Source of the DNA: Prauserella marina
GTDB taxonomy: Bacteria > Actinomycetota > Actinomycetes > Mycobacteriales > Pseudonocardiaceae
Length of the DNA: 64,000 nucleotides
Direction: 5' to 3'
NCBI RefSeq assembly: GCF_002240355.1
Contig: NZ_CP016353.1
Location: 2,840,501 to 2,904,500, forward strand
In this document: positions 1 to 15,506 of the stretch, piece after piece
Layout of the letters: the number at the start of each line of letters is the position of its first letter
Numbering within the stretch: the first letter of the stretch is position 1
The notes under the pieces: generated by a model
What the model was told of the DNA's origin: nothing
The model's input: the letters and a program-made list of their open reading frames with translations, nothing else
The model's database searches: none
Made by a program: the position numbers and the translations under genes

Positions 1-2430
1 GGGGTCGACCTCGGCGTACTCGACGAGCATCTCCATCAGCGCGGGGGCCGTGTTCCACAGCGTGACCCCGTGTTCGCGCATCAGTTCGAGCCAGTGACCT
101 GGATCGCGTTGCCGCGCCGCCTCGGGGAGTACGAGCGCGCCACCGGTGCCCAGTACGCCGAAGACGTCGTGCACCGAAAGGTCGAAGCTGAACGCCGAGA
201 GCGCCAGCATGCGATCCTCGGCGCGGAGGGGGAAGCGGTCGACCAGGTCGTCGATCGTGGTGCGCGCGGCGCGGTGCTCGATGGCGACGCCCTTGGGCTT
301 GCCGGTCGAACCGGAGGTGAAGATGACGTAGGCGAGGTCGTCCGGCGCCGGTCTCTGGACATCGGGTCCTGGGACATCGGGTACCGGCACGGCGATGGTG
401 CCGTCCTGGCGAAGGTCGTGCACGGTCACCTCGTCCGGCCAGCACCCGGACGTGCCACCGGCGACGAGCGCGTGACGGATACCGGCCTGCTCGCACACGG
501 AGGCCACGCGGTTCGCGGGCCACGACGGTTCGACGGGCACGTACCCCGCGCCGCTCGCGCAAATGCCCAGCATCGCGACGATCTGCGCTGGACCCTTCTC
601 AGCTGAGACCGCGACGAGGTCGCCCGGACCGAGGCCAAGACCCGCCAGCGCGGCGCCGGTGCGGGCCGCGAGGGCCGTCAGTTCCTTGTGGCTGAGGGTC
701 GCTGAGGGCCCGAGCAGCGCATCGGCGTCCGGCGCCAGGTTACCGGCGGCGTGCAGCGGGTCTGGCAACAGCGGTCCCGCCGCGCCGAACGGCGTGACGT
801 CGAGTGATTCGGAAGGCAGGAACGACGGATCCCAGCCGAGCACGCGGTCGGTCCACGCCGAGGGGTCGTCGGCGAGCCTGCGCAGCAGCCGCAGGTGAGC
901 CGTGAGCATGCCCTCGATGAACCCGTCGGGGAACGCGCCTTCCACGGTGTCCCAGCAGAACGTGAGCGCGCCGCGCTCGACGTAGACGATGTGGTCGAAC
1001 AGCACCTGTGGCGTCTGGGAGATCCCGAAAACCTCCTCGCCGAGCCAGGCTGCGGGATCGTCGCCGGTGGCGAGGCCGAGACCGCTGGTGAACACGACCG
1101 GGTAGCGCGGTTCCGGGTTGCCCGCCGCCCGCAGCGCTTCCACGCCGGAGACCGAACGGTGATCCAGGTCTGTCCAGAATCGACGGTTGGTCCGCAGCGC
1201 GTAGTCGGCGAACCCGGACCATCGCGCGGGATCGAGCACCGGTAGTTCGACGAGGACCGTCGAGGTGAAATCGCCGAGTACCGCCGAAAGGTCCTGATCG
1301 TCGGGCCGGTCGAAAAGTGTCGCGTTGAGACAGAACGGTTCGGTGGACCCCCAGCGATTGAGGGTCAGTCCGAACGCGGCGAGCAGCAGGCCGGTGGGGC
1401 TGAGTCCGTGCTCGGCGGCGCGGGCACGCAGCGCCGACCATTCCTGGGGCGGCAGTTGTCCTTTCGCCCTGGTGAACCGGTGTCCCCTGAGTTCGTGCGC
1501 CTGCTCGGCGACGGGGAGCGCGGGCCCGCCGGGAAGGGTGCCGACACGGGAAGCCCAGTAGGCGAGATCCTCGTCCCTGCGCCGTCGCCGCGCCGGATCG
1601 GCTTCACGAGCGCGCACGATCTCGGCGAACGTCGTCGGCTGTGTGGGTAGTTCGGCAGAGGGGTCGCCGACGAGCGTGCCCCATTCGGCGAGCAGGTGCA
1701 GCCATCCGGCGAAGTCGACGGCGAGGACGTCGATGCCGAGACACAGCCGGGTCCGGCCGCCCGGAAGGAAGATGGCGCTGAGGTCGAACAGCGGCCAGGT
1801 GTCGGAGGGGCGCACCTGATGGGAACGGTCGTCGCGCAACCGGCGCGCGTGTTCCTCGGCTTCGGCGGAGTCGAGGTGGCGCAGATCGGTGACGTCGATG
1901 TCGTAGTGGGCGACGGTGCCGAGAACGCGCTGCCGCGCGTCGGCGCCGACGACCATGCGCAGCATCGGATGCCGTCGTACGAGCCGGTTCCACGCGGTGG
2001 TCAGGTTCTCCAGGTCGGCTTCCTGAGGGCCCTCGGGGGTCCGGTCGTACTCGCGGTAGAAGAACGTCGCGACGCCGCCGAGCGGAAACGCGGGATCGCG
2101 GCCGACCCAGTAGGCGGCCTGGATCGGCGTGAGGGGCAGTGGCTCGGAGTCGAGGCCGCCGGTATCGGGGTGCTCGTCGACGGCCCCGCCGGGATCGGTG
2201 ACGCCATGGGCGATCGAGCGGATCGTCGCGGTGCCGAGAAACGCCGTGAGCGGGAGGTCCAGTCCGAAGTCCTCGCGAAGGCGGCGGCGCAGCCGCACGG
2301 CTGTGAAGGATTCGAGCCCGAGTTCGGGGAGGGGGACGTCGGCGCCGAGAGCGTCGGCCGTTGTGCCGAGCACGTCCCCCACCACACCGGTCACGTCTTC
2401 GATGTCGACGGCTGGCTCCGACGAGCTCAT
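1..2430 (-). CDS. Siderophore-type NRPS, N-terminal part (ArCP-Cy-A...)
   Basis: The first 810 residues of a non-ribosomal peptide synthetase; the 3' part lies beyond base 1. Residues about 10-75 are a carrier domain with the phosphopantetheine serine in LGLESF (Ser41). With no loading adenylation domain before it, this fits an aryl carrier protein charged in trans. Residues about 95-520 form a heterocyclization (Cy) domain: it opens with LPLTPIQAAYWVGR, has FFYREYD, and carries the Cy-specific DxxxxD (DVLAVD, Asp234 and Asp239). An adenylation domain follows, with the phosphate loop FTSGSTGKPKG near residue 703, and is cut by the window edge. The layout matches PchE/HMWP2/MbtB-type initiation modules that make a hydroxyphenyl-thiazoline or -oxazoline; the domain order is seen, the product is inferred. 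The start ATG follows aaggagg. A Zur-like box sits 34 bp upstream. The frame is open throughout with no frameshift. Confidence 0.88.
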   Translation of the reverse strand, partial: MSSSEPAVDIEDVTGVVGDVLGTTADALGADVPLPELGLESFTAVRLRRRLREDFGLDLPLTAFLGTATIRSIAHGVTDPGGAVDEHPDTGGLDSEPLPLTPIQAAYWVGRDPAFPLGGVATFFYREYDRTPEGPQEADLENLTTAWNRLVRRHPMLRMVVGADARQRVLGTVAHYDIDVTDLRHLDSAEAEEHARRLRDDRSHQVRPSDTWPLFDLSAIFLPGGRTRLCLGIDVLAVDFAGWLHLLAEWGTLVGDPSAELPTQPTTFAEIVRAREADPARRRRRDEDLAYWASRVGTLPGGPALPVAEQAHELRGHRFTRAKGQLPPQEWSALRARAAEHGLSPTGLLLAAFGLTLNRWGSTEPFCLNATLFDRPDDQDLSAVLGDFTSTVLVELPVLDPARWSGFADYALRTNRRFWTDLDHRSVSGVEALRAAGNPEPRYPVVFTSGLGLATGDDPAAWLGEEVFGISQTPQVLFDHIVYVERGALTFCWDTVEGAFPDGFIEGMLTAHLRLLRRLADDPSAWTDRVLGWDPSFLPSESLDVTPFGAAGPLLPDPLHAAGNLAPDADALLGPSATLSHKELTALAARTGAALAGLGLGPGDLVAVSAEKGPAQIVAMLGICASGAGYVPVEPSWPANRVASVCEQAGIRHALVAGGTSGCWPDEVTVHDLRQDGTIAVPVPDVPGPDVQRPAPDDLAYVIFTSGSTGKPKGVAIEHRAARTTIDDLVDRFPLRAEDRMLALSAFSFDLSVHDVFGVLGTGGALVLPEAARQRDPGHWLELMREHGVTLWNTAPALMEMLVEYAEVDP

Positions 2431-2463
2431 GGTCCTCCTTGCGAAACGGCGCAGCATGACTGG

Positions 2464-2484
2464 AAACGAAAATCATTTCCATTA
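2464..2484. promoter_or_regulatory. Candidate Zur box upstream of the NRPS
   Basis: The 21 bases centred on position 2474 read with a core of GAAAATCATTTCC. This differs at only three positions from the 21-bp actinobacterial Zur (FurB) palindrome as I recall it, whose core is TGAAAATCATTTTCA. The two halves are near-perfect inverted repeats. The site lies 34 bp before the NRPS start codon, where a repressor would cover the promoter. Zur-controlled metallophore NRPS genes are known (coelibactin in Streptomyces). Binding here is inferred. Confidence 0.65.
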
Positions 2485-2538
2485 TGTCTGCATGAAACTC
2501 ACCCGTGTCAAGGTCGACTACCAGTGGTGACGGTCAGT

Positions 2539-2725: not shown

Positions 2726-3376
2726 TCAGACGACGGCGAGGAACATGACGCCCATGCCGAAGCTCATGAGCGCGTGGCAGGCGTGGTCGGTGACCACTCG
2801 GCCGAGCGTGGGGGAGCTCCGGTCGGGAAGCCGCCTGCCGAGGTCGAAAGCCTTGGCGAGCCAGGGAAGGCAGAGCATGACGAACACGAGCCCGAGGGCG
2901 AGATAGCTGACGGTCAACGCCACCGGCGTCGCCACGGTGTCCTGGGCCTGTGCCATCGGCGTACCACCACCCATCGCATGGTGGTGGTGTCCGCCTCCTG
3001 AGTCATCTCCGGACGTGCTCATCAGCGCGGGCATGCTGGCTGCCATCCAGGCCATTCCCGCCATCATCACCGCGTGGTGCGCACCGGCGGCACGCGGTGC
3101 GTGGCCGCCGGAATGCGGGTGACCGGCGTCCAGGATCATCCTGCCGAGGAACCACCCGACCGCGATCGTGAAAACCACGGCCTGGGCGGCTGCGGGAACG
3201 CTCATGCCCCAAGGCCAGATCATGGCGATCATCGCGGCGCTCATCAGCAGGTGCCAGCCCGCGTCGATCCGGTCCGGGATCCGGATCGAGGGCAGGACCA
3301 GTACACGCACGCACCACGCGGCCGTTCCGGCGAACAGAAAGCTGAGTATCCAGCTCAGTACTGGCGAGGCGATCAC
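2726..3376 (-). CDS. DUF5134-family His-rich membrane protein
   Basis: A 216-aa membrane protein with about six hydrophobic segments that I recognise as DUF5134-like. The central loop is metal-ligand rich: HPHSGGHAPRAAGAHH, then GGGHHHHAMGGG, together with several Met residues. Such loops commonly bind copper or nickel, so a metal-related role is inferred; the family has no settled function that I know of. The GTG start at 3376 overlaps the stop of the upstream PepSY gene (GTGA), so the two are translationally coupled. A longer reading begins upstream but lies in the other gene and encodes no recognisable sequence, so I rejected it. It belongs to the same metal-linked neighbourhood as the P-type ATPase and SigC. 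Confidence 0.8.
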   Translation of the reverse strand: MIASPVLSWILSFLFAGTAAWCVRVLVLPSIRIPDRIDAGWHLLMSAAMIAMIWPWGMSVPAAAQAVVFTIAVGWFLGRMILDAGHPHSGGHAPRAAGAHHAVMMAGMAWMAASMPALMSTSGDDSGGGHHHHAMGGGTPMAQAQDTVATPVALTVSYLALGLVFVMLCLPWLAKAFDLGRRLPDRSSPTLGRVVTDHACHALMSFGMGVMFLAVV

Positions 3377-4773
3377 GGCCGTGCCTCCCGGGGTTCGCGT
3401 TCCGCCGATCGTCGCCGCGACCCGAGTATCGTGTCCACGACAAGGAACCCGAGCAGCGAAATCCCGAGCAGCGGCACGAAGTAGGCGATGAACGCCGTCA
3501 CCACGGCCAGTGGAGCCAGCACCCTGCCGGGCACTCGCCGCCATCGGCCCCTGGATGGCGGTTTCCCGAACGCTCCGGTTCCGTTGGGTCCACTGTGGTC
3601 ACCGTGTCGCGGACGGCGCAGCCACCACATGCGGTAACCCCAGAAAATGACCGACAGCAGGCCGATTCCGAGCAGGACGAGGACGAGCTGGTTGACCCAG
3701 CCGAACAGCAGGCCCATGTGCGCGTCGATGCCCCATCGCGCCAGCTTGGCGATCAGTGGATAGTCGTCGAAGCGAAGCGTCTCGGCCACCTGCGCCGTCG
3801 CCGGGTCGATCGACACCGAATCCTGTTGCGTGGGCCAGGCTCTGCTCACCTGTTGCACGACATAGGCTTCCCCGGCGGCGGAGGGCGGGGTGACCTCGAT
3901 GCTCCCGGAAAGTCCGTGTTCCCTTGCGGTGCCGACGATCCGGTCGATCCCGGCGTCCGCGCCGGGCATGGTCGAGGGGAGTTCTGCCGACACGGCGGGC
4001 GTTTCCCAGGAGAGCGCGGCTCGTAACTCGGTGATGTTCGCGCCGGCGTACTGCGACCAGGTCAGGCCCGTCGCGGACAGGAACACCAGCCCGGCCGCGA
4101 TCCACAGCCCGGTCGCGCCGTGCCAGGAAAGGATGCGCCGCCGTCCTTTCGCGCCGCGTTCGGGACGTAGCAACGACTTCCGGCGCCGCCTGCCGAACCA
4201 CAGGACGGCTCCGCCCACGGCCACGACCCACAGCCAGCTCGCGGCGAGTTCACTGTAGATCCGGCCCACGTCGCCGAGATGAAGGCCCCGGTGCAGGTTG
4301 TCCACCCAGGCCCTGATCGGGAGCGCCTGACCGCTCCCGTAGGTCTCCAGCACCCCGGTCACCTCGGCGGTGTGCGGGTCGACGAAGGCCGTCCTGCGGT
4401 AGCTTTCCGGCAGATCGGGTGCTTCGAGGATGACCTGTGTCGCGTCGGTTCCCGTCGTGGCGGGCCGGACGCCCAGCAGTTCGTCGCCGGGCCGCGCGGC
4501 CATACCGACGCGCACCTGTTCGCTCAGTGGCAGTGAGTGTGGCTGGTCGGGGACGTGCACGATGTCGTCGTAGACGAGTTCGTCGAGCTGAGGAGTGAAC
4601 ACGTAGAGCAGGCCGCTGACGGCGGCGACGACGAGGAACGGTGCGATGAACACTCCGGCGTAGAAGTGCAGTCGCAGCAACAGTGCGCGCGGCCCTGCCC
4701 ATGCCGATCGTGGCTGATCGGCTGCCGGATCCGCTGCCGTCGCGGATGTCCTCGGTTTGTCGCCGACACTCAT
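3373..4773 (-). CDS. PepSY-associated transmembrane protein
   Basis: A 466-aa PepSY_TM protein. The first membrane helix and periplasmic start read LHFYAGVFIAPFLVVAAVSG then LLYVFTPQLDELVYDDI, typical of this family. Further helices lie near residues 190-215, 235-260 and 350-375, and the C-terminal part has WHGATGLWIAAG and WGYRMWWLRRP. PepSY_TM proteins are linked to siderophore and metal reduction or uptake in many bacteria; the exact chemistry is unknown. I prefer the ATG at 4773 because a GGG ribosome-binding site lies 8 bases before it. The in-frame ATG at 4785 has no spacing from that site. It is the first gene of a two-gene leftward operon with the DUF5134 gene and faces the reductase-like gene at 5051. 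Confidence 0.85.
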   Translation of the reverse strand: MSVGDKPRTSATAADPAADQPRSAWAGPRALLLRLHFYAGVFIAPFLVVAAVSGLLYVFTPQLDELVYDDIVHVPDQPHSLPLSEQVRVGMAARPGDELLGVRPATTGTDATQVILEAPDLPESYRRTAFVDPHTAEVTGVLETYGSGQALPIRAWVDNLHRGLHLGDVGRIYSELAASWLWVVAVGGAVLWFGRRRRKSLLRPERGAKGRRRILSWHGATGLWIAAGLVFLSATGLTWSQYAGANITELRAALSWETPAVSAELPSTMPGADAGIDRIVGTAREHGLSGSIEVTPPSAAGEAYVVQQVSRAWPTQQDSVSIDPATAQVAETLRFDDYPLIAKLARWGIDAHMGLLFGWVNQLVLVLLGIGLLSVIFWGYRMWWLRRPRHGDHSGPNGTGAFGKPPSRGRWRRVPGRVLAPLAVVTAFIAYFVPLLGISLLGFLVVDTILGSRRRSAEREPREARP

Positions 4774-4877
4774 GTGCGTGCACATCCCGTCGCGTCACGT
4801 GCTTCTCGGCGGAAGCGGTCCGCAACAGTGGTCGCAGGGGTGGGCACCCGAGTTCACGTGGCCGTGTTCTTTTGACT

Positions 4878-4900
4878 CAGGTCACAGAGGTATTGACCTG
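4878..4900. promoter_or_regulatory. Perfect 7-bp inverted repeat in divergent promoter
   Basis: CAGGTCA and TGACCTG are separated by 9 bases in the 277-bp space between the PepSY gene (leftward) and the reductase-like gene (rightward). The right arm overlaps a TTGACC that could be a -35 element. It looks like the operator of a dimeric regulator acting on both genes; the regulator is not identified. Confidence 0.5.
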
Positions 4901-5050
4901 TCGTCGTCGACGTGGTTGTCGCCGGGGGGCGGTTGTCAAGGAGTAGCCGAACCGGCCCCGGACCTGATATTCACGGCATACCAACGAAGACCGACAACAC
5001 GACACGGGTCGATCCGGTCGCGGGCCGGTTCGCGGGCAGGAGGTACCGGG

Positions 5051-6139
5051 ATGACTGACCGGGAGAGTGTGCGCGACCGGAAGGGGCTCGATCGCGGAGC
5101 CTTGCGAGCCGACCTTCGAGCGGCGGTTCCCGACGCGACTGCCGCCCTCGTCATCACTGCGGGAATCTTCGTCTGGCTTTACGCGCGGGTGCGGGAGGGA
5201 ACCTCGGCGACCGTCGAGATCATGCCGTTTCTCGCCGATGCCGACACATATCTCATGTACTGGCTGTGCCAGGCATTCGGCTGGTCGGCGATGTTGTGGG
5301 CGTGGTTGACGACGATGCTCGGGTTGCTCCGTTCGGGTCGGCAGCCGCGCTGGTTTCCTGTTCCGCCGGCCAGGCTGGAACGGTGGCACCGGAGCACGAG
5401 CCTGACGACGATCGCGCTGATGTTCCTGCACGCGGTGTTCTTCTTCACCGAGAAGGCCCGGGCGAACGAAGACGGGCTTGGGATGGTGGCCCGGTGGGGG
5501 AAGGCGTTCGTCGAGACCTTCGTTCCCGGCGCCTATCCGTCCGGAACCGGCAAGATCGCGATTCTGATCGGGTTGCTCGCCCTCTATCTCGCGATCCCGC
5601 TCGGCCTCGCCTACTACTTCCGGGCAAGGCTGGGGGCACGGTCGTGGCGGGCGCTGCACAGGTTCGTGCTGGTCGTGTACGTGCTGAGCATCTGGCACAC
5701 GCTGCTCTACAGCTCCAACGTGTGGTTCGACGGCTGGCCGAGAACCACGCTGTGGTTGCTCCAATTGCCACCCGCGTTGCTGTTGCTGACGCGGCTGCTC
5801 GTCCCGGCTCGCCCGAGTGATCGCGGCGGCGCGTTGCGGAAGCGGCCGCTGGCCCTCACTCTCCGCGTCGGAGCTGTCGTCGCGGTGGCGGGCGTGATCG
5901 CCACGATCGTCGTGGTCGCTGTCAGCGGCAGGGACGGCGGCAGGGCCCACGGCGTCGACGGCGCGGGCCTGAACGTGACGCAGGCGATGGTGTGGACGGG
6001 TCTCGCGCTCTTCGCCGTGATCCTCGTCGTGGCGGTCGGTGTCGCACGGCGCATGGAGCGCAGGCAAACCGAGAGGCGATCCGTTCCCCGCGGCAAGGCG
6101 GATGAGCGCGCGGGTCAGTTCACCAGCGAGACCCAGTAG
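5051..6139 (+). CDS. Ferric-reductase-like haem membrane protein
   Basis: A 362-aa protein with about eight hydrophobic segments and the two paired histidines expected for bis-haem coordination in ferric reductase-like transmembrane domains. One helix runs from WHRSTSL to LHAVFFF (His spacing 14) and another from LHRFV to WHTLLY (His spacing 13). It has no FAD or NADPH domain, so electrons must come from a partner protein or quinol. This is seen in the YedZ/MsrQ-like and b-type FRD families. The start ATG at 5051 follows GGAGG at 5038. It is divergent from the PepSY gene, and its last 25 bases overlap the end of the convergent VKOR gene. A role in metal reduction next to the P-type ATPase is inferred. 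Confidence 0.8.
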   Translation: MTDRESVRDRKGLDRGALRADLRAAVPDATAALVITAGIFVWLYARVREGTSATVEIMPFLADADTYLMYWLCQAFGWSAMLWAWLTTMLGLLRSGRQPRWFPVPPARLERWHRSTSLTTIALMFLHAVFFFTEKARANEDGLGMVARWGKAFVETFVPGAYPSGTGKIAILIGLLALYLAIPLGLAYYFRARLGARSWRALHRFVLVVYVLSIWHTLLYSSNVWFDGWPRTTLWLLQLPPALLLLTRLLVPARPSDRGGALRKRPLALTLRVGAVVAVAGVIATIVVVAVSGRDGGRAHGVDGAGLNVTQAMVWTGLALFAVILVVAVGVARRMERRQTERRSVPRGKADERAGQFTSETQ

Positions 6140-6708
6140 TTCCAGAAGGCATGGAGGACCGCCCCCGCGATCAGCACGTACCACACCGCGACGATGGCGG
6201 CGTCGACGCGAGTCAGCGCCGTTGCCGACCGGCGGGTTCCGGCGTACCCGTGCAGTGTTTCGATCGTGGTGCAGACGAAGAGCGGGATCATCGCGATCCA
6301 GACGAACAGGCAGTAGGGGCACAGCGCGCGGATGTCGTACAGGCTCGCCATGACGAGCCAGTGGACGAAGACGACGCCGAACGTGACGCCTGCCTGTAGA
6401 CCCCATTGAAACCAGCGCGGCGGCCGGAATCCGCTCAGCATTATCACGCCGATGGTGGTCACGACGGCGAATCCGCCGATTCCGAGCAACGGGTTGGGAA
6501 AACCGAACACGGCGGCTTGCGGGCTGGCCATCACCGTCCCGCAGGTCACCACCGGGCTCAGTGAGCACGAAGGCACGTAACCGGGGTCGGCGAGCGTCGC
6601 GAGCTTTTCCAGCGTGAGCGCGATCGATGCCACGAGACCCACGATCCCACCGGCGAGGCAGACCGGACCCAGCTTCCGCGCCGGTGTCCGATCGTCCACT
6701 GTGCTCAC
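6115..6708 (-). CDS. Vitamin K epoxide reductase family protein (VKOR)
   Basis: A 197-aa VKOR-family quinone-linked thiol oxidoreductase with about five membrane helices. The redox-active pair is in CPYC (ALCPYCLFVW), and the loop cysteines that relay electrons are in PSCSLSPVVTC. In bacteria, VKOR re-oxidises a DsbA-like thioredoxin-fold protein and passes the electrons to menaquinone. Its partner is encoded immediately upstream: the ATG overlaps the stop of the DsbA-like gene (ATGA). No fused thioredoxin domain is present, so the pair works as two proteins. The 3' end overlaps the convergent ferric-reductase-like gene by 25 bp. The pair may oxidise cysteines in exported copper or haem proteins from this locus (inference). 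Confidence 0.92.
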   Translation of the reverse strand: MSTVDDRTPARKLGPVCLAGGIVGLVASIALTLEKLATLADPGYVPSCSLSPVVTCGTVMASPQAAVFGFPNPLLGIGGFAVVTTIGVIMLSGFRPPRWFQWGLQAGVTFGVVFVHWLVMASLYDIRALCPYCLFVWIAMIPLFVCTTIETLHGYAGTRRSATALTRVDAAIVAVWYVLIAGAVLHAFWNYWVSLVN

Positions 6709-7439
6709 TGGTTGAGTTTGTCGTCGATGAGACGGCGCAGTTGCGCGTCGACCGTGGCATAGTCGTCACCGTCCGGCCGGAAGCGCGTCTCTTCGACGAA
6801 GATGGTCGGCGTACCCGACACACCGGCTTGCCTGCCCGCGCTGACATCGTCGGCTATCCGCTCGGGTATCTCGTCCGAGGCCATGTCCCTGCGGAACCGG
6901 TCGATGTCGAGCCCCGCGTCGCGGGCGTAGCCTTCGAACAGTTCGGCGGCCCGCTCGCTGTCCGAACTGATGCTCCGCCCGTCAGGAGTCACCGCCCATT
7001 CGCGGAAGCCGTCGTAGAGTGAGTGATGCATCTCGCGAAACCGGCCCTGGTTCGCCGCCGCCTCCGCCGCGGTGGCCGCCCGGGTCGCCAAGGGATGCAT
7101 GTCCAGCGGGAAGTTCCGGATCTCCACGGTGATCCGGCCCTCGTAGTCCCTTTCGATGCCCCTGACGATGTTCTGGTGGTAGCCCGCGCACGCGGGGCAC
7201 TGGTAGTCGAGGAATTCGACGATGGTCACCGTGCCAGGGCCGGATTCGGTCAGGGTATTGGCGTCGCTGCCGCGTCCGGGGGAACCGGCGTCGCCCCGTG
7301 CCTGGTCCTCCTCGCCCCTGCTCATGAACAGCAATCCGCCGAACACCACCACCGCCACGACGGTCACCACCAGGACGATGATCACATTGGGGGAGAAGGG
7401 GTTTCGAGCCGTGACGGGGTTGGGCCTTCGCCGGATCAT
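6705..7439 (-). CDS. Membrane-anchored DsbA-like thioredoxin-fold protein
   Basis: A 244-aa DsbA/thioredoxin-4 family protein. A single N-terminal membrane segment (residues about 18-42) anchors it on the outside. The active site is CPAC in EFLDYQCPACAGYH, and the cis-proline loop is GTPTIF. It ends with FRPDGDDYATVDAQLRRLI, typical of the family. It introduces disulfides into exported proteins and is re-oxidised by the VKOR encoded just downstream with an ATGA overlap. It is transcribed leftward from the 134-bp divergent region shared with the CopD-CtaG gene. Confidence 0.92.
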   Translation of the reverse strand: MIRRRPNPVTARNPFSPNVIIVLVVTVVAVVVFGGLLFMSRGEEDQARGDAGSPGRGSDANTLTESGPGTVTIVEFLDYQCPACAGYHQNIVRGIERDYEGRITVEIRNFPLDMHPLATRAATAAEAAANQGRFREMHHSLYDGFREWAVTPDGRSISSDSERAAELFEGYARDAGLDIDRFRRDMASDEIPERIADDVSAGRQAGVSGTPTIFVEETRFRPDGDDYATVDAQLRRLIDDKLNQ

Positions 7440-7573
7440 GGGAGTTTCCTTCGGTACGGAGCGTGCGGTCTCACCACAGTGGTCGGCGCGGTGTCCGAGT
7501 GAGTTCCCGTGCCGCGTCGGTTCACCCCGTGGTGCACGGGAACCGGAACCGCCCGCCGTGCGACCTCTCCACC

Positions 7574-9535
7574 GTGAATGCCAGACAACGGAACATCCGG
7601 CGACCCGCAGGACTCTCGGCCGGTGTGCTGTCGGGCGGGGTCGCCGGGCTGCTCGTCGTACTCGGCGTCGTCGCGCTGGGCGGCGACGTGTACGCGCCCC
7701 TTGGTGACTCCGACCCCGGCGCGCTGACCTCGTACGGTTTCGCCGTGGTCCGGTTCGTCGCTACGGGTGCGGGTGTCGTGTGTGGTGGCGCCGTGGCCTT
7801 CGCCGCGTTCGTCGTGCCTTCTCCCGGCACCGACGGTCTTTCGGCGGATGCCTACGCCTCGGTGCGCCTCGCCGGTGTGGCTGGTCTGTTGTGGACTCTC
7901 GGCGCGCTGCTGGCTGTTCCGTTCTCGGCGGCGGACATCTCGGGGCAGCCGGTGGGCAAGGTGCTTGCCGGAGGACTCCTCGACAGCGTCGACGCGGTCG
8001 AGGAAGCCAAGGCGTGGCTGATCGTGGCGGCCATCGCCGCGGTGGTGACCGGGTTGTGCTGGTGCGCGTTGCGCTGGCGGACGGTCGTTGCCGCGTTCGC
8101 GCTGACGATGGTGGGCTTGCTCGCTCCGGTGGTCGCCGGTCACGCGGCGGTGGGGGCGTGGCACGACGTGATGACCAACGCGCTCGTCTGGCACGTGCCC
8201 TCGGCGAGTGTCTGGGTCGGCGCGCTCGTCGCGTTGCTTGCTCAGTACCGCCGAGGGGGTTCCGTCGACGGTGCCGTGCTGCGCCGCTACGACCGGCTCG
8301 TCCTGGTCTGCGCCGCGGTGGTCGGCCTGTCCGGTGCCGTGGCGGGACTCACCGGTGCCCGGCCGGAGAACCTGGGCTCGACCGCCTACGGGGTGCTGCT
8401 CGTCGCTCACGCCGGGGTGTTCGCGGTGCTGGTCGTCGTGCTGCTGTTCGTGCGGAGGCGCAGGGGAAGTTCAGGGGTGTCGCGGTTGCGGCTGCTCCTG
8501 GCCGAGGCGGTGTTGCTCGGAGTGTCGCTCGGCGCGTCACTGGGGCTGACGCACCTGGTCCTGCCCTCGTTTCTGACCGATCCGCCGACCGTGCACGAGA
8601 CGATTCTCGGCTACGACCTCGACGCCGCGCCCGCCCTGCTCGATCTCGTCGCGGGGTGGCGGTTCGATCTGGTTCTCGGCACCGTCGCCGTGCTCGCGAC
8701 CGCCGCCTACCTCGCTGGTGTCCGCTCGCTCCGTCGGCGCGGCGACCATTGGCCCGTTGGCCGCGCCGTCGCGTGGTGCGCTGGCTGGGTGGCCGTGCTC
8801 GTCGTGACGTCCTCGGGGCTGGGAAAGTACGCGCCGGGCGCGTTCAGCCTGCACATGGTGGCGCACATGACATTGAACATGCTGGCACCGGTGCTGCTCG
8901 TGCTCGGAGGGCCGGTCACGCTGGCCTTGCGGGTGCTGCCCGCTTCCGGTCGCCTCGGACCGGCCGGGCCGCGAGAGTGGCTGGTGGCACTCATGCATTC
9001 CCGGTTCGCCAGGCTGCTCGCGCATCCCGCCGTCGCCGCGCCGATGTTCGTCGGTTCGTTCTACGTCCTGTACTTCTCGGGGTTGTTCGGCCAGGCGATG
9101 CAGTATCACTGGGGCCACCAGTTGATGAACGTCCACTTCCTCATCTCGGGCTACCTCTTCTACTGGCTCGTGATCGGCGTGGACCGGCCACCGCGTCCGT
9201 TGCCGCACCTGGTGCGTCTCGGCATGTTGTTCGCGGTGATGCCGTTTCACGCGTTCTTCGGCGTCATCGTCATGAACACGCAGACCGTGATCGGCGAGAC
9301 GTTCTACCGCTATCTTTCGGTGCCATGGCTCGATGATCTGCTTGCCGACCAGCGGCTCGGCGGCGGGATCGCGTGGGCGACGGGGGAGATCCCCATGGTG
9401 ATCGTCGTGGTTGCCCTGCTGGTGCAGTGGTCGCGAGCCGATGAAAGGGAGGCAAGGCGCAAGGATCGCGCCGGTGACGACGAGTTCGAGGCATACAACG
9501 CCATGCTCGCCGACCTGGCGGCGCGGCGCCGCTGA
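7574..9535 (+). CDS. CopD-CtaG fusion membrane protein (Rv0102-like)
   Basis: A polytopic protein of about 653 residues with roughly 14-15 membrane segments. The N-terminal half matches CopD copper-resistance/uptake proteins (VAGHAAVGAWHDVMTNALVW and HVPSASVWVGAL carry conserved His). The C-terminal half matches caa3_CtaG cytochrome oxidase assembly proteins (SLHMVAHMTLNMLAPVLLVL, HWGHQLMNVHFLISGYLFYW, MPFHAFFGV). The same fusion occurs in Rv0102 beside the nrp and ctpB genes of mycobacteria. The role is membrane handling of copper, probably import or delivery to oxidase. I chose the GTG at 7574 because homologous sequence begins there; a GTG at 7463 would add 37 residues of low-complexity sequence. 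Neither has a convincing Shine-Dalgarno site. Confidence 0.85.
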   Translation: MNARQRNIRRPAGLSAGVLSGGVAGLLVVLGVVALGGDVYAPLGDSDPGALTSYGFAVVRFVATGAGVVCGGAVAFAAFVVPSPGTDGLSADAYASVRLAGVAGLLWTLGALLAVPFSAADISGQPVGKVLAGGLLDSVDAVEEAKAWLIVAAIAAVVTGLCWCALRWRTVVAAFALTMVGLLAPVVAGHAAVGAWHDVMTNALVWHVPSASVWVGALVALLAQYRRGGSVDGAVLRRYDRLVLVCAAVVGLSGAVAGLTGARPENLGSTAYGVLLVAHAGVFAVLVVVLLFVRRRRGSSGVSRLRLLLAEAVLLGVSLGASLGLTHLVLPSFLTDPPTVHETILGYDLDAAPALLDLVAGWRFDLVLGTVAVLATAAYLAGVRSLRRRGDHWPVGRAVAWCAGWVAVLVVTSSGLGKYAPGAFSLHMVAHMTLNMLAPVLLVLGGPVTLALRVLPASGRLGPAGPREWLVALMHSRFARLLAHPAVAAPMFVGSFYVLYFSGLFGQAMQYHWGHQLMNVHFLISGYLFYWLVIGVDRPPRPLPHLVRLGMLFAVMPFHAFFGVIVMNTQTVIGETFYRYLSVPWLDDLLADQRLGGGIAWATGEIPMVIVVVALLVQWSRADEREARRKDRAGDDEFEAYNAMLADLAARRR

Positions 9536-9552
9536 TCCCGCTCGCGGCGTCG

Positions 9553-10281
9553 TCAGGCGGCGTCGCGCTTGGCCACCGGCCCGCGAGCGGAACGACTGCC
9601 CCTCGCCGATCGCAAGGTCCTGGCGAGGTTGTCTCGCGGGGAAGCCGGTTCCGGATTCGGCCACGCGGGCTCGGCGTCGGCCACGGGGGAGGGGTCGTTC
9701 GTCTTGTGCTGGCGGTGCACGAAGAACAACAGGACGACTCCGGCGAGCATGATGCCGTGGGAGACGACTCGTGCCCCGGTGACGAGCCCGCCGAACAGGT
9801 CCGATGCGGACACCACCGCGAGCACGACGGCGAAGCCGGTCAGCGCGGGCAGCAGACCGCCGGCCGACGTCGGCCGCAGCGCCGCCCACAGCAGGCCGAT
9901 CCCGATGGCGAGATTCCACGCGGCGCTTTCGTTGCCGAGGTGCGTCGCGGCCACCGCGTGCTCGGCGTGCGTGGCGTCGACGCCGAGCAGCTGCGCGAAG
10001 CCGAGGCTCGCCTGTAGCAGAGCCACGACTGTCAGTGCCAGCCGCAGGCCCCAGCGGTCGCGGCGGGGGAGCGGGGCCGCCGCGACGATGCGGTCGGTCA
10101 GGTCGGGCACCGAAGGCGCGCTCGCGAGCCGCATGCCCCGGTGCAGCCTGCCCGCCTGCTCCCACCAGAGCCGGCAGGAGACACAGCAACCGAGGTGCCG
10201 GTCCACGCTCCCTTGGTCCAGGTGTTCTTCTTCGTTGTCCAGGCGCGCCGACAAGGCCTCCCGGTAGTCCGAACAGTCCAC
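9553..10281 (-). CDS. Zinc-finger anti-sigma factor with four membrane helices
   Basis: A 242-aa protein with a short zf-HC2 domain at the N terminus: HLGCCVSC supplies His-x3-Cys-x2-Cys, the signature of zinc-containing anti-sigma factors. It is followed by four membrane segments from about residue 75 to 195. The loop after the first helix is rich in His (DATHAEHAVAATHLGNE), which could sense a metal or another signal outside the membrane (inference). The start is GTG at 10281. The gene is divergent from the SigC-like sigma gene with 62 bp between them and convergent with CopD-CtaG. It probably sequesters that sigma factor. As far as I know the mycobacterial SigC has no established anti-sigma partner, so this pairing is notable. 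Confidence 0.82.
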   Translation of the reverse strand: MDCSDYREALSARLDNEEEHLDQGSVDRHLGCCVSCRLWWEQAGRLHRGMRLASAPSVPDLTDRIVAAAPLPRRDRWGLRLALTVVALLQASLGFAQLLGVDATHAEHAVAATHLGNESAAWNLAIGIGLLWAALRPTSAGGLLPALTGFAVVLAVVSASDLFGGLVTGARVVSHGIMLAGVVLLFFVHRQHKTNDPSPVADAEPAWPNPEPASPRDNLARTLRSARGSRSARGPVAKRDAA

Positions 10282-10343
10282 ACGTCAATAGTCGCGTGGA
10301 GGGGCGGTGAAGTTCCACGGCCCCTCGGCTAGGGTCGCTCACC
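10282..10343. promoter_or_regulatory. Divergent anti-sigma/sigma promoter region
   Basis: The 62 bases between the two genes contain the inverted repeat GAGGGGC (10299-10305) and GCCCCTC (10320-10326), 14 bases apart. It could be an operator or a leader hairpin. I cannot place a -35/-10 pair with confidence. Confidence 0.35.
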
Positions 10344-10916
10344 GTGAGCCACAGTGGACCCCGCGACGACGACCACATCACCGAACTGGCCTTCGCCGCC
10401 GGGCGGGGTGACCAGGTCGCGTTCGAGGCGTGGGTCAGGGCGACCCAGGCCGACGTCTGGCGTTTCCTCGTGCATCTCAACGGGCGGCAGACGGCCGACG
10501 ACCTGACCCAGGAGACGTACCTGCGCGCGGTGAGCGCGCTACCGCGGTTCGCGGGCCGGTCCTCGGCAAGAACGTGGCTGCTTTCCATCGCGCGCCGCGT
10601 CGTCATCGACAACATCCGGCGGGAGTCGGCGCGTCCCCGGCTTGCCGACCAGGACTGGGAGACCGTCGCCGACGCGCCCGCCATGCGGCGCAGGGACGTC
10701 GCCGGCGACTTCGAGGCGGTCGTGGACACCCGGCTGCTGCTGGACCAGCTCGACCCGGAGCGAAGGGAAGCGCTGATCCTGACGCAGGTACTCGGGTTCG
10801 GCTACGCGGAGGCGGCGGAGATCTGCGGCTGCCCGGTCGGCACCATCCGCTCGCGGGTGGCGCGGGCGCGCGACGAGTTGCTGCTGGTCCTGCGCGAGCA
10901 GGGCAACGCGAGCTGA
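10344..10916 (+). CDS. sigC: ECF RNA polymerase sigma factor SigC
   Basis: A 190-aa ECF sigma factor. Region 2 reads ATQADVWRFLVHLNG then ADDLTQETYLRAVSALPRF, followed by RSSARTWLLSIARRVVIDNI. Region 4 has LILTQVLGFGYAEAAEICGC and PVGTIRSRVARARDELL. These blocks match mycobacterial SigC closely, as recalled from its sequence, and the length is nearly the same (about 185 aa). There is no C-terminal extension. Published work links SigC in Mycobacterium tuberculosis to copper acquisition and the nrp operon. Here the gene lies between a CopD-CtaG fusion and a copper-type ATPase and near an NRPS, which agrees. The start GTG at 10344 is the only good start. Regulation is probably by the divergent membrane anti-sigma factor. 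Confidence 0.85.
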   Translation: MSHSGPRDDDHITELAFAAGRGDQVAFEAWVRATQADVWRFLVHLNGRQTADDLTQETYLRAVSALPRFAGRSSARTWLLSIARRVVIDNIRRESARPRLADQDWETVADAPAMRRRDVAGDFEAVVDTRLLLDQLDPERREALILTQVLGFGYAEAAEICGCPVGTIRSRVARARDELLLVLREQGNAS

Positions 10917-11099
10917 CAGGAGCTGTTCCCGCCACACACCGGACGTACCACCGCCCAGGTAGTCGGGCGGGCGCGCCGCCGAGTTCCCGGGACCCCTCGG
11001 ATCTTTTCGGCAAGAAGCGATCGAGTAGCGTTCGTGCTCGTTCTCGCCACACAGCCGGACGGCCACCACCTTCGGTGCAGGTGGACGAGGACGTGATCG

Positions 11100-13379
11100 A
11101 TGACCGCGACAACCGCTGAGGGGACCGTTTCCCCCGGCGAACACGACAACGGAAAGCCGACGCGAACCGTCGAGCTCACGGTGACGGGAATGACCTGCGC
11201 CGCGTGTTCGGCGCGGGTTCAGCGTGGCCTGAACAAACTTCCCGGGGTGACCGCGTCGGTCAACTACGCGACGGAGCGGGCGATCGCCGAGGTCGCGGCG
11301 GATACGGACACCGGGCTGCTGCTGGACCGGGTCTCCCAGCTCGGTTATTCGGCGTCGGTGCGCGGAACCGAGCACAACGACACCGGCGGCGAGCGGGTCC
11401 GCGACCTGCGCCGCAGGCTGGTGGTCGCCGCGTTGCTGGCCCTGCCGCTCGGGAATCTGTCGATCAGTCTCGCGCTCGTGCCTTCGCTGCGGTTCTCCGG
11501 CTGGCAGGCGTTGTGTGTTCTGCTCGCCGTTCCGGTGGTGTTCTGGTCGGCGCTGCCGTTTCACCGTGCCGCGTGGCGGGGACTGCGACACGGCTCGGCC
11601 AGTATGGACACCTTGGTCTCGCTCGGCGTGCTCGCGTCGTTCTGCTGGTCGGTCGTCGCGATGGCCGCGGCGGGAGAGGAACCCGGTTACTGGCTCGGGT
11701 TCGGGCCGACGCCGCCAGGAGCCGACGCGATCTACCTCGACGTCGCGGCGGGAGTGACGACTTTCCTGCTTGCTGGCCGGTATTTCGAAAGTCGTTCCCG
11801 GCGCGCCGCCACCGCGCTGCTGCGAGCGCTGGACGAACTGGCCGCGAAGGAAGCGCGGGTGCTTCGCGACGGCGAGGAAGTCCTCGTCCCGGTCGCCGCC
11901 CTTGCCGTCGGCGATCTTCTGGTCGTCAAGCCGGGAGAGGCCCTGCCCGCCGACGGGGTGGTCGAGGACGGCCGGTCGAGTGTGGACGTGAGCGCGCTGA
12001 CCGGTGAACCGGTACCGGCCGACGTCACGGCAGGCGACAGGGTCATTGGGGCGAGTGTCAACCAGACCGGACGGCTTCTGGTACGTGCCACGGAAGTGGG
12101 CGCGCACACGCAACTCGCGCAGATGACGGCACTGGCCGAAAGGGCGCAGTTGCGCAAAGCAGCCGTGCAGCGCCTCGTCGATCGCATTTGCGCGGTCTTC
12201 GTGCCCGTCGTGATTCTCGTGTCACTCGCGACGCTGGGAGCCTGGCTGCTGGCGGGGCAGGACACGCGCCTCGCCTTCCAGGCGGCCGTCGCGGTGCTCA
12301 TTATCGCCTGCCCGTGCGCGCTGGGTCTGGCCACGCCGACGGCGCTCATGGTGGGGGTGGCGCGGAGTGCCCAGCTCGGCATCCTGATCAAGGGACCGGA
12401 GGCGCTGGAAGCCAGCCGGGCCGTGGACACGGTGGTGCTGGACAAGACGGGAACGCTGACGACGGGCACGATGACGGTGGTCGATCTGCACGTCGCCGGT
12501 GCTCGGAACACCGGTGAGCTGCTGAGGTTCGCCGGTTCGGTCGAGGCGGGGTCCGAGCATCCGATCGGTGCGGCCATCCTCGCGCGTGCACGCGCCGAAC
12601 TCGGCGACGTGCCCCCACCTCGTGATTTCGCCGCGGTGCCAGGGTTCGGCGCCGAGGCCATTGTGGACGGTGTCCGTGTCGTTGTCGGCAACGAGCGGTT
12701 GTTCGGCGAACGGGGCATCCCGGTTTCTCCCGAGTTGACCGACCACCTCCGGAACGCGGAGCGGGAGGGGGCGACGGCCGTGCTGGTCGCCGCCGACGCC
12801 GAGACCATCGGCGTGCTCGTGGTGCGGGACCAGACCAAACCGTCGGCGCCCGCTGCCGTCGCGACCCTGCGGCGCATGGGACTTCGCACCGTGCTGCTGA
12901 CCGGTGACATCGAGGCCGCCGCGCGGACGGTGGCCGCCGAGATCGGCATCGACGAAGTGCGCGCCGGAGTCTTGCCCGCCGACAAGGCACGCGCGATCGA
13001 CCGGTTGCGGGAAGGCGGTACCAGGGTGGCGATGGTCGGCGACGGCATCAACGACGGTCCGGCGCTGGCGAGCGCGGATCTGGGCATGGCCATCGCGAGG
13101 GGCAGCGACATCGCGGTGCGCTCGGCCGACATGATCCTCGTTCGGGAGGACCTGCGCGTGATCCCGGATGCCATCCGGCTCGCGAACCGCACTCTCACGA
13201 CCATCCGGGGCAATCTCGCGTGGGCCTTCGGCTACAACATCGCCGCCATCCCGCTGGCCGCGGCGGGAGTCCTCAACCCGCTCATCGCGGGAGCGGCCAT
13301 GTCACTGTCGTCGGTGCTGGTCGTGTCGAACAGCCTCCGGCTCCGCTCCTACGACCCCGCCGAGCGCTCTGCTTCGTGA
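11100..13379 (+). CDS. Copper-type P1B ATPase (CtpA/CtpB-like)
   Basis: A 759-aa heavy-metal translocating P-type ATPase. An N-terminal heavy-metal-associated domain carries [12 protein letters not shown] (CxxC). The actuator domain has the TGEP loop ([12 protein letters not shown]). The membrane metal site is CPC in [13 protein letters not shown], the mark of copper or silver transporters. The phosphorylated Asp is in DKTGTLT, the HP locus is GSEHPIGAA and the hinge is [11 protein letters not shown]. Length and order are complete. It is most like mycobacterial CtpA/CtpB. Direction of pumping is not given by sequence; P1B ATPases export from the cytoplasm, often to load copper onto membrane or periplasmic enzymes. 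The 183-bp space after sigC suggests its own promoter, possibly SigC-dependent. Confidence 0.93.
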
Positions 13380-14237: not shown

Positions 14238-15506
14238 ATGGTGAACGCCCCTTCGCCACGAAGCGTTCTCGGCGCAAGAGCCGGTCGAGCACCGGTAATC
14301 GTCGCGTCGGCGCGGACCCCTATCGGCCGCGCGGTCAAAGGGGCGCTCAAAGACGAACGTCCCGACGACATGGTCGCGCAGGTCATCGCGGCCGCGCTGG
14401 GCAAGGTCGGCGGCGTCGTCGACGAAGGACTCCTCGACGAAGTCCTCGTCGGCTGCGGTTCCCCCTCGGGGGTCCAGGGATTCAACATCGCCAGGATCGC
14501 GACCAATCTCCTTGGCCTCGACCATGTTCCGGGAGCCACGGTGAACCGGTACTGCGCCTCCTCCGTGCAGACCACTCGCCAGGCCGCCCACGCCATCGTC
14601 GCCGGTGAAGCCCGGTTCGTGGTGTCGGCAGGAGTCGAGTCGTGCACGTCCTACTCGAATTCGGACGCCGACGCCGTGCCCGGCACGATGAATCCTCTTT
14701 TCGACACCGCTCGCGCGCGGACGGCGGAGGCGGAGTCCGGCATCGAGCCACAATGGACTGATCCGCGTGCGCGGGGGCGGTTGCCCGACGTCTACATCTC
14801 GATGGGACAGACCGCGGAGAACGTCGCCGCCCTGTGTGACGTCTCGCGCCGGGATCAGGACGAGTACGCCCAGCTTTCTCAGCGCCGTGCCTCGGCCGCG
14901 CTGGACAGCGGTTTCTGGGCACGGGAGATCACGCCGTACACGCGTGCCGACGGCAGCCTTGTCGAGGCCGACGACAGCCCGCGCCCTGGCACCACACTGG
15001 ACAAGCTCGCGGCACTCAAGCCGGTATTTCGCGAGCACGGCACGGTGACCGCGGGCAACGCCTGCCCGCTCAACGACGGGGCGAGCGCGCTCGTCATCGG
15101 TGGCGAGGACGACGCACTCGCCCTCGGGATCCGGCCACGAGCCCGCATTCTCGCGACCTCGGCCACCGGGCTGAACCCCGAGATCATGGGCCTCGGCCCC
15201 GTCGAATCGGTACGCGCGGTACTGGAACGCACGGGAATGCGGCTCGGTGACATCGATCTTGTCGAGCTCAACGAGGCGTTCGCCGCGCAAGTTCTCGCCT
15301 GCCAGCGGAAACTGGGTATCGATATGGACAAACTCAACGTCAACGGCGGCGCGATCGCTGTCGGGCACCCCTTCGGATCGACCGGTGCCCGCATCACGAA
15401 CACGATTCTCACCGCGCTGGAGGATCGTGACCTGAGCACCGGCCTCGTCACCATGTGTGTCGGTGGCGGACAGGGAATGGCCATGATCGTGGAGCGGATG
15501 TCATGA
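14238..15506 (+). CDS. Thiolase family acetyl-CoA acyltransferase
   Basis: A 422-aa thiolase. The acyl-accepting Cys is in NRYCASSVQT, the His in GAIAVGHPFGSTGAR and the second Cys in MCVGGGQGMAM, all three positions intact. The N terminus (APVIVASARTPIGRAVKGAL) and the ELNEAFAAQ motif are canonical. It cleaves a 3-ketoacyl-CoA with CoA, or condenses two acyl-CoAs; the surrounding hydratase and dehydrogenase favour degradation. I chose the ATG at 14238 because AAGGAAGG lies about 6 bases before it; a GTG two codons earlier is too close. The stop overlaps the next start (ATGA). Confidence 0.93.
   Translation: MVNAPSPRSVLGARAGRAPVIVASARTPIGRAVKGALKDERPDDMVAQVIAAALGKVGGVVDEGLLDEVLVGCGSPSGVQGFNIARIATNLLGLDHVPGATVNRYCASSVQTTRQAAHAIVAGEARFVVSAGVESCTSYSNSDADAVPGTMNPLFDTARARTAEAESGIEPQWTDPRARGRLPDVYISMGQTAENVAALCDVSRRDQDEYAQLSQRRASAALDSGFWAREITPYTRADGSLVEADDSPRPGTTLDKLAALKPVFREHGTVTAGNACPLNDGASALVIGGEDDALALGIRPRARILATSATGLNPEIMGLGPVESVRAVLERTGMRLGDIDLVELNEAFAAQVLACQRKLGIDMDKLNVNGGAIAVGHPFGSTGARITNTILTALEDRDLSTGLVTMCVGGGQGMAMIVERMS

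Follow-up and report, generated by a model that had tools for sequence, protein, structure and literature searches.

A heterocyclizing peptide synthetase behind Zur-type operators in Prauserella marina: a candidate zincophore cluster

The 64,000-nucleotide stretch of the Prauserella marina genome analyzed here (contig NZ_CP016353.1, positions 2,840,501 to 2,904,500; hereafter the window) begins with a nonribosomal peptide synthetase (NRPS) gene, NRPS1, that leaves the window leftwards and has a palindrome resembling a Zur operator at its promoter. The question raised by this locus is which metal the product of the cluster serves. The original prediction, made from the sequence of the window, was a Zur-controlled cluster for a zinc- or copper-binding phenolic thiazoline or oxazoline rather than an iron siderophore. 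Our analysis favors a Zur-controlled zincophore cluster, to which we give a probability of about 0.78. Control by Zur, as predicted from the operators, is highly probable, and a zincophore function is likely once that control is granted.

Zur-type boxes at NRPS1 and in the genome

The 21-bp palindrome TGGAAACGAAAATCATTTCCA was located at window positions 2461-2481 (genome 2842961-2842981), 3 bp to the left of the positions 2464-2484 first given for it, and contains two overlapping 15-bp boxes (2461-2475 and 2467-2481). As predicted, it differs at three positions from the consensus TGAAAATGATTTTCATTTTCA. It is the sole place within three mismatches of that consensus in the 6.99-Mb genome (none for the reversed pattern), a rank that is not independent, as the consensus came from the wording of the prediction. 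The site does lie upstream of the NRPS gene, but not at the predicted distance of 34 bp: an ATG is also present at 2457, yet the one at 2430 is backed by AAGGAGG and is the more likely start, which leaves about 30 bp between it and the box. Read by eye, TTGACA and CATAAT elements would bring the box right up to the -10 region, a position that suits a repressor; a promoter scan limited to spacers of 16-18 nt reported no promoter at NRPS1.

A symmetric matrix was built from eight non-cluster sites picked for carrying the box, namely the znuCB site of Prauserella marina and the promoters of seven C-minus (cysteine-less) rpmB paralogues, one set of which belongs to this genome and the rest to six relatives. 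With this matrix, 270-bp promoters of NRPS1 from this genome and 15 orthologues (loci L052-L066, 56-73% identity) were scored against a background of 1343 scan windows, taken from the same 15 loci and the 64-kb window with the surroundings of the NRPS1 start left out. The 16 promoters all scored between 16.3 and 27.0 bits. The two best background values were 26.9 and 12.6, the former (L060, position 6210) lying directly upstream of a CobW gene; after this finding the place was removed from the null, leaving 1341 scan windows with a maximum of 12.6, which all 16 promoters exceed. When the matrix columns were permuted 200 times, using every third background scan window, 152 permuted matrices put no promoter above background and the best put four of 16 (mean 0.4), while 200 rounds of shuffled promoters gave at most one. 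The orthologue search had returned 21 loci, of which L072 (27% identity, partial) was left out of scoring. The promoter of a Rhodococcus metagenome-assembled genome (L067, 46% identity) scored 19.9, that of the relative G034 20.9, and the four non-actinobacterial loci L068-L071 between -1.1 and 11.0. The best site of the window outside the NRPS1 promoter was a weak Zur-like CGAACACGATTCTCA at 15397-15411 (12.6 bits).

In the whole genome, a palindromic pattern allowing two mismatches was found at ten places and its reversed form at none; the pattern was written after the site was seen, and the rank is therefore not independent. Four of the ten are the promoters of NRPS1, of a divergent gene pair inside the cluster, of znuC/znuB and of cobW/rpmB2-rpsN2, the last two having been found by this pattern and then used in the matrix. 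The remaining six, with matrix scores of at most 12.6, adjoin genes with no zinc link visible by eye. A 19.4-bit box that had no part in building the matrix precedes one of the znuA-family genes, of which there are three; it stands about 170 bp ahead of the match at 6255286. Among the 25 of 31 rpmB loci that could be parsed, a site at most three mismatches from the 21-bp pattern occurs within about 220 bp in seven of 13 C-minus promoters and in none of 12 zinc-type promoters (best, six mismatches). The Zur targets described in PMC5472717 and PMC7174638 include znu, genes of CobW type and those for cysteine-less paralogues of ribosomal proteins. Of the three Fur-family genes in the genome, one adjoins an ArsR gene, and by eye the other two neighbor a catalase-like and a KatG-like gene. 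The first is taken as Zur from this gene context, a pairing that resembles mycobacterial smtB-zur as described in part of PMC7174638. With an in silico operator and a zur gene in the genome, the cluster would belong to the Zur regulon. The predicted Zur control is strongly supported in silico by a box that is of the same kind as those at znuCB, one znuA-family gene and cobW/rpmB2, that recurs in 16 of 16 NRPS1 promoters and that stands above background.

The cluster and its proposed product

The NRPS cluster expected to the left of the window was read from three overlapping stretches of the same genome (56 kb in all, 45 kb when joined), in which 14 proteins were scanned for domains. It consists of 12 genes, opened by NRPS1 and all directed leftwards except the flavoprotein gene (Table 1), and is probably of zincophore type as judged by its Zur-type operators and importer families.

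NRPS1 encodes 1278 amino acids from the ATG at 2430 (genome 2839094-2842930). The predicted start of aryl carrier protein, heterocyclization (Cy) and adenylation (A) domains holds in so far as Pfam finds a carrier protein in front, a Condensation (Cy) domain with DVLAVD and an AMP-binding domain, and a second carrier protein is present in addition. The Cy region matches PchE, BmdB, EpoB and Irp2/HMWP2 in the PDB. A motif scan picked up DVLAxD in 12 of the 15 orthologous NRPS1 proteins, and 13 of the 15 loci showed DVLxCD in their polyketide synthase (PKS) protein; the orthologues without the motif are frames missed by the scan or contig ends. The A-domain pocket, read by eye, is the same in 13 of 15 orthologues, those of Nonomuraea and Kineosporia being one position off each, and is presumably close to the cysteine code. 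NRPS1 is supported as a Cy-type, probably cysteine-using and thiazoline-forming NRPS. The thiazoline of the original prediction is probable from Pfam domains and motifs, and the oxazoline is unlikely because the pocket is cysteine-like.

For the methyltransferase MT1, the sole PDB match at E ≤ 0.01 is residues 494-763 of the NRPS entry 5wmm, presumably a methyltransferase segment that interrupts an A domain there; the CurJ entry nearest to MT2 is presumably a C-methyltransferase. The saccharopine-dehydrogenase-like protein matches its Pfam model at 32.3 bits (cut-off 25.1) and is found in five relatives; no NCBIfam model matched it and its best PDB E-value is 0.024. The importer's binding protein resembles the NikA, Opp5A and CntA models (CntA, 5e-18) and its ATPase NikD/NikE, all below the model cut-offs. 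Besides NRPS1, the flavoprotein/reductase promoter carries a box (26.9 bits). A further box at genome 2819882-2819896 (20.5 bits) lies between the gene of one more, outer methyltransferase (rightward, 2819922-2820821) and a leftward Spore_YtfJ-like gene, which suggests that the Zur-controlled stretch extends further left; a Zur-regulated methyltransferase is described for M. smegmatis in the excerpted text of PMC7174638.

Table 1. Features of the NRPS1 promoter, the cluster and its right-hand neighborhood
Feature	Position	Strand	Basis or remark
Zur-type box, 9-3-9 palindrome TGGAAATGATTTTCGTTTCCA (minus strand)	window 2461-2481		pattern scans and matrix
-10-like CATAAT	window 2481-2486	-	by eye; last base common to box
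-35-like TTGACA	window 2506-2511	-	by eye; 19 nt from CATAAT
Ribosome-binding site AAGGAGG	window 2434-2440	-	sequence
Likely NRPS1 start codon ATG	window 2428-2430	-	ribosome-binding site AAGGAGG upstream
NRPS1 gene, first 810 codons	window 1-2430	-	carrier protein, Cy, first part of A; leaves window leftwards
First carrier protein domain, motif LGLESF (Ser41)	window 2206-2397	-	Pfam PP-binding
Cy domain, Pfam Condensation core	window 1216-2022	-	Pfam and PDB matches
Cy active motif DVLAVD (DxxxxD)	window 1714-1731	-	sequence and motif scan
A domain, beginning	window 1-741	-	Pfam; Cys-like pocket D-L-H-N-F-S-L-I-W by eye
PKS-NRPS: ketosynthase (KS)-acyltransferase (AT)-ketoreductase (KR)-acyl carrier protein (ACP)-Cy(DVLVCD)-thioesterase (TE)	genome 2832627-2839097	-	Pfam
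SBP_bac_5 binding protein	genome from 2831098	-	Pfam
Two BPD_transp_1 permeases	genome from 2830152, 2829361	-	Pfam
Fused double ABC ATPase	genome from 2827958	-	Pfam; NikD/NikE-like
Methyltransferase MT1	genome from 2826631	-	PDB match 5wmm
Methyltransferase MT2	genome from 2825514	-	nearest PDB entry CurJ
Carrier-Cy-like(SLLIID)-carrier protein	genome from 2823550	-	Pfam
Pyr_redox_2 flavoprotein	genome to 2823532	+	Pfam
Saccharopine-dehydrogenase-like protein	genome from 2821527	-	PF03435
Methyltransferase MT3	genome from 2820808	-	Pfam
Copper-type block right of NRPS1	window 2726-13379		DUF5134, PepSY_TM, ferric-reductase-like, VKOR, DsbA-like, CtaG/CopD, extracytoplasmic function sigma factor, CopA-like ATPase

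All 12 genes were found in each of the four relatives whose available sequence covers the whole cluster, namely G034, Saccharomonospora sp. CUA-673, Actinorugispora endophytica and Actinocorallia populi. NRPS1 orthologues occur in nine named genera, and the binding-protein gene follows NRPS1 and the PKS gene in 12 of 15 named loci; L053 and L062 end before that point, and the locus of Nocardiopsis trehalosi (L059) has its two synthases, NRPS1 and PKS, in a single frame of 2923 aa. Among 60 genomes including this one, a close match to NRPS1 residues 1-527 was found only here and in G034 (59%; next, 39%), and three genomes of the same genus within that set gave none. Such a patchy distribution would be expected if the cluster can be transferred. 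The flavoprotein/reductase promoter carries a box in G034 (18.7) and Saccharomonospora (23.7). Actinorugispora has its box (26.9) at a different divergent promoter of the cluster, and in Actinocorallia a box (25.2) precedes the MT2 and carrier-Cy-carrier genes. In G034 a Fur-family gene, possibly a cluster-borne Zur, follows the saccharopine-dehydrogenase-like gene (L103, 10345-10779), and in Actinocorallia populi a CobW gene with a 26.9-bit box lies beside the cluster (L060, 2509-6391). At the same Actinocorallia locus, a Phosphonate-bd/NMT1-type binding protein and a permease adjoin the cluster and could form a further uptake system.

The phenolic nature of the predicted product was not upheld. 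The cluster has one AMP-binding domain, which is cysteine-like, and tblastn revealed no chorismate enzyme and no stand-alone aryl-AMP ligase in its 45 kb or in the four complete relatives, the sole AMP-forming ligase found in each being the A domain of NRPS1, on which the weak DhbE matches fall. The genome has four chorismate-binding enzymes, for which the best names are TrpE, PabB and, twice, isochorismate synthase; for none is it salicylate synthase. About 1.95 Mb from the cluster, one isochorismate synthase adjoins a 2,3-dihydroxybenzoate-AMP (DHB-AMP) ligase in the vicinity of another NRPS, and this region (genome 4780154-4796307) is probably a catechol siderophore locus. Neither an isochorismate-synthase-like fragment that lies 6 kb upstream in L056 of Actinomadura kijaniata (3995-4330) nor an A-domain-like one upstream in L052 of Saccharopolyspora soli (3334-3957) recurred in the other stretches. 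The first carrier bears GL[ED]SF in all 16 NRPS1 proteins and, as a lone query, best matches PKS acyl carrier proteins (Pks13) in the PDB; full-length NRPS1 aligns with PchE starting at residue 17. Since this motif differs from those of the remaining four carriers (LGATS, LGGHS, LGGDS and LGGDS), a non-amino-acid starter is conceivable. The starter could come from an unlinked enzyme, or it could be cysteine loaded by the single A domain.

The flavoprotein carries a CPFC (CXXC) motif. In the PDB it comes closest to DepH (E 7.6e-48), the uncharacterized 3fbs (5.7e-47) and 4ntd (2e-46), which we take to be HlmI, followed by 4fk1 and GliT (1.9e-32); two of these five are uncharacterized proteins, and plain thioredoxin reductase entries, 4ntd and 4fk1 aside, start at about 3e-19. 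The protein shares the CXXC motif with the dithiol oxidases DepH, HlmI, GliT and DnoP, and counts DepH and 4ntd among its closest solved relatives; in contrast to these oxidases, this putative dithiol oxidase sits in a Zur-box-bearing cluster of metallophore type. It is doubtful that the flavoprotein is not biosynthetic and instead a DnoP-like defense against foreign zinc-chelating dithiols, induced by zinc starvation and travelling with the cluster. The matches to DepH, 3fbs, 4ntd and, with a weaker score, GliT, together with the gene's own divergent position and box, speak for such a role, as does the induction of Pseudomonas DnoP by zinc depletion (PMC11317636, excerpt). On the other hand, the gene is in-cluster here and in four of four complete relatives, so that handling or making the cluster's own product fits better than general defense. 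The same flavoprotein family suggests a non-aryl, all-cysteine (thiol plus thiazoline) zincophore, with a dithiol as zinc ligand and the flavoprotein closing a disulfide as a redox gate that releases or hides the ligand. We consider this idea unlikely; if true, a dithiol zincophore would be a separate class of zinc metallophore, apart from the phenolate-thiazoline and opine types.

In the zincophore model, Zn-Zur would occupy the box beside the -10-like region in zinc-replete cells and block transcription. When zinc is short, the operon and the other boxed cluster genes would be released together with znu, cobW and rpmB2-rpsN2, which carry boxes as well. NRPS1 would then activate cysteine and form a thiazoline on the starter, and the carrier-Cy-like-carrier and KS-AT-KR-ACP-Cy-TE proteins would, judging from their domains, extend and release the chain. 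The three methyltransferases and the saccharopine-dehydrogenase-like protein would act in trans, which would amount to yersiniabactin logic on separate proteins. The product, which appears to be rich in sulfur, would leave the cell, bind zinc and re-enter by the ABC importer, of nickel/opine type by its families, whose genes lie between the synthase and methyltransferase genes. The dithiol-oxidase-like flavoprotein, under its own box, may act on product thiols or protect against them. The particular chemistry of the cluster is offered as a proposal.

Several observations weigh against this model. Zinc specificity is predicted from the operator only, and SBP_bac_5 importers also carry peptides, nickel and opines; in Nocardiopsis trehalosi, importer genes were not found between the synthase and MT1. 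In the separate Cy-like domain the first Asp of the motif is missing (SLLIID, both here and in Saccharomonospora), and neither Pfam nor the motif scan revealed a carrier protein that would separate the last Cy domain from TE, so that yersiniabactin does not serve as a one-to-one template for the assembly line. No box was seen at the flavoprotein's own promoter in Actinorugispora (3.5) and Actinocorallia (0.3), nor in the stretches scanned at the ArsR-Zur locus and at two of the three znuA-family loci, although for one of these two, at 2648096, the znuCB box is situated about 2.2 kb upstream. Six of the 13 parsed C-minus rpmB promoters have no site, possibly being operon-internal, and the six unparsed rpmB loci count on the same side. 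When the S. coelicolor 15-bp motif was used as a strict string (PMC5472717, excerpt), the NRPS1 site had two mismatches, a value equaled by 51 of 704 background scan windows taken from the 64-kb window (7.2%); fewer than 2% did so in ten of 15 orthologues and 4.9-22.2% in the other five. Because of this mixed result, the matrix was built from other promoters.

Iron, other regulators and copper

A product that is a siderophore in its chemistry, yersiniabactin- or pyochelin-like, and happens to be under Zur, serving iron and zinc alike, is quite improbable. Its assembly-line layout is near that of the yersiniabactin and pyochelin synthases, and the excerpted text of PMC8636617 describes yersiniabactin as a zincophore in E. 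coli Nissle. However, no salicylate or catechol supply was found in the cluster, and the binding protein is of SBP_bac_5 type with nickel/opine-like names and not of the siderophore types PF01032 or PF01497 (PMC12971057, excerpt). Moreover, no IdeR/DtxR-type site came closer than eight mismatches in 20 loci (15 close orthologues and five distant ones): the best matches to a 19-bp IdeR consensus had 8-11 mismatches, and 10 here. A role in zinc rather than iron, as had been predicted, is therefore favored by the Zur box and by the lack of an IdeR-like site.

It is still less credible that the box serves another Fur-family protein (FurA-type) or some other regulator sharing the operator. Two further Fur-family genes exist in the genome and Fur-family boxes resemble each other, but the two FurA-like loci (3.3 kb each) have no box, with best scores of 4.7 and 8.8 bits, whereas znuCB and cobW/rpmB2, which belong to the described Zur target classes (PMC5472717, PMC7174638), do.

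The original prediction allowed for copper, and a copper-type block, which also holds an anti-sigma-like gene (read so by eye; no Pfam match), adjoins the cluster on the right. Thiazoline metallophores can bind copper. A copper metallophore or copper-defense cluster joined to these genes can nevertheless be all but dismissed, since a search of 19 stretches from 16 relatives found no DUF5134, PepSY_TM, VKOR, DsbA or CtaG, and CopA-like matches (38-40%) in just three of the stretches, and since about 295 bp with the Zur box separate the block from NRPS1 here. The relatives' flanks extend over at most 10 kb, and the comparison is partial in L059, L054 and L066 because little sequence lies upstream of NRPS1 there (0.3, 1.3 and 3.8 kb).

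Comparison with known metallophore systems

The zincophore reading places the cluster among the Zur-controlled metallophores that are described for actinomycetes (PMC6103462, excerpt). In its working it would be like a zincophore system of the coelibactin kind, with chemistry in the style of yersiniabactin. Zur control, predicted here, is described for coelibactin (S. coelicolor SCO7676-7692) in portions of PMC3430247 and PMC5472717. Judged from their descriptions, coelibactin and sorangibactin (srb) also share with it a Cy-type NRPS with a carrier in front, and srb the trans-acting methyltransferases (PMC10127202, excerpt). The same excerpt describes SrbE, essential in srb, as saccharopine-dehydrogenase-like and states this type for coelibactin too, so the corresponding protein links the cluster with both, a likeness by Pfam name only. 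The present cluster differs in having a PKS module and a synthase split over three separate proteins, and in encoding a nickel/opine-type importer as well as a flavoprotein that resembles dithiol oxidases. Salicylate supply is provided by SrbB and SrbK in srb, and a salicylate-derived phenol is predicted for coelibactin (PMC10127202, excerpt); no such supply turned up in the 45 kb from Prauserella marina or in the stretches of the four relatives with complete clusters. No P450 of the CYP105N1/SrbH type was present in the 14 proteins scanned.

Yersiniabactin HMWP2/HMWP1 resembles the cluster in its carrier-Cy-A start with DxxxxD, three Cy-type domains, a single cysteine-like A domain, a KS-AT-KR-ACP-Cy...TE end, methyltransferases and a reductase. 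The yersiniabactin line ends in KS-AT-KR-ACP-Cy-carrier-TE. Here, in contrast, the domains are on separate proteins, the methyltransferases act in trans, one Cy-like domain has SxxxxD, no carrier precedes TE, the importer is of SBP_bac_5 type and a Zur box is present; no salicylate synthase, salicyl-AMP ligase or Irp3-type thiazolinyl imine reductase was found in the cluster. Because salicylate supply, the P450, the carrier before TE and the Irp3-type reductase were not encountered, the cluster is not classed as coelibactin- or yersiniabactin-type.

The cluster can also be likened to the Cnt systems for staphylopine and pseudopaline, which are zinc-responsive metallophores with an Opp/Nik-type importer; in contrast to these, no opine-type biosynthetic gene was seen in the 14 proteins scanned, and an NRPS/PKS product is expected here. 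The chemistry of [S,S]-EDDS is NRPS-free and unrelated to this cluster. Its likeness to the cluster lies in being a Zur-controlled actinomycete metallophore, from Amycolatopsis japonicum (PMC6103462, excerpt), as is proposed for the product here.

A search of titles and abstract openings, with most subscription journals outside it, returned no description of the cluster. Coelibactin is the best-known Zur-controlled Cy-type actinomycete cluster, and the excerpted texts of PMC3430247 and PMC10127202 report no isolated product as of 2012 and 2023. The present cluster forms a family of its own; with zinc starvation as the predicted inducer and a candidate importer in view, its product is open to a direct search. 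A 2026 metallophore survey in eLife states, in the part covered here, that regulatory elements are likely needed to tell zincophores from siderophores (PMC12971057), and the operators described here supply such a signal. As far as can be read from sequence, the cluster appears to be related to the known Zur-controlled metallophores, with a layout of its own.

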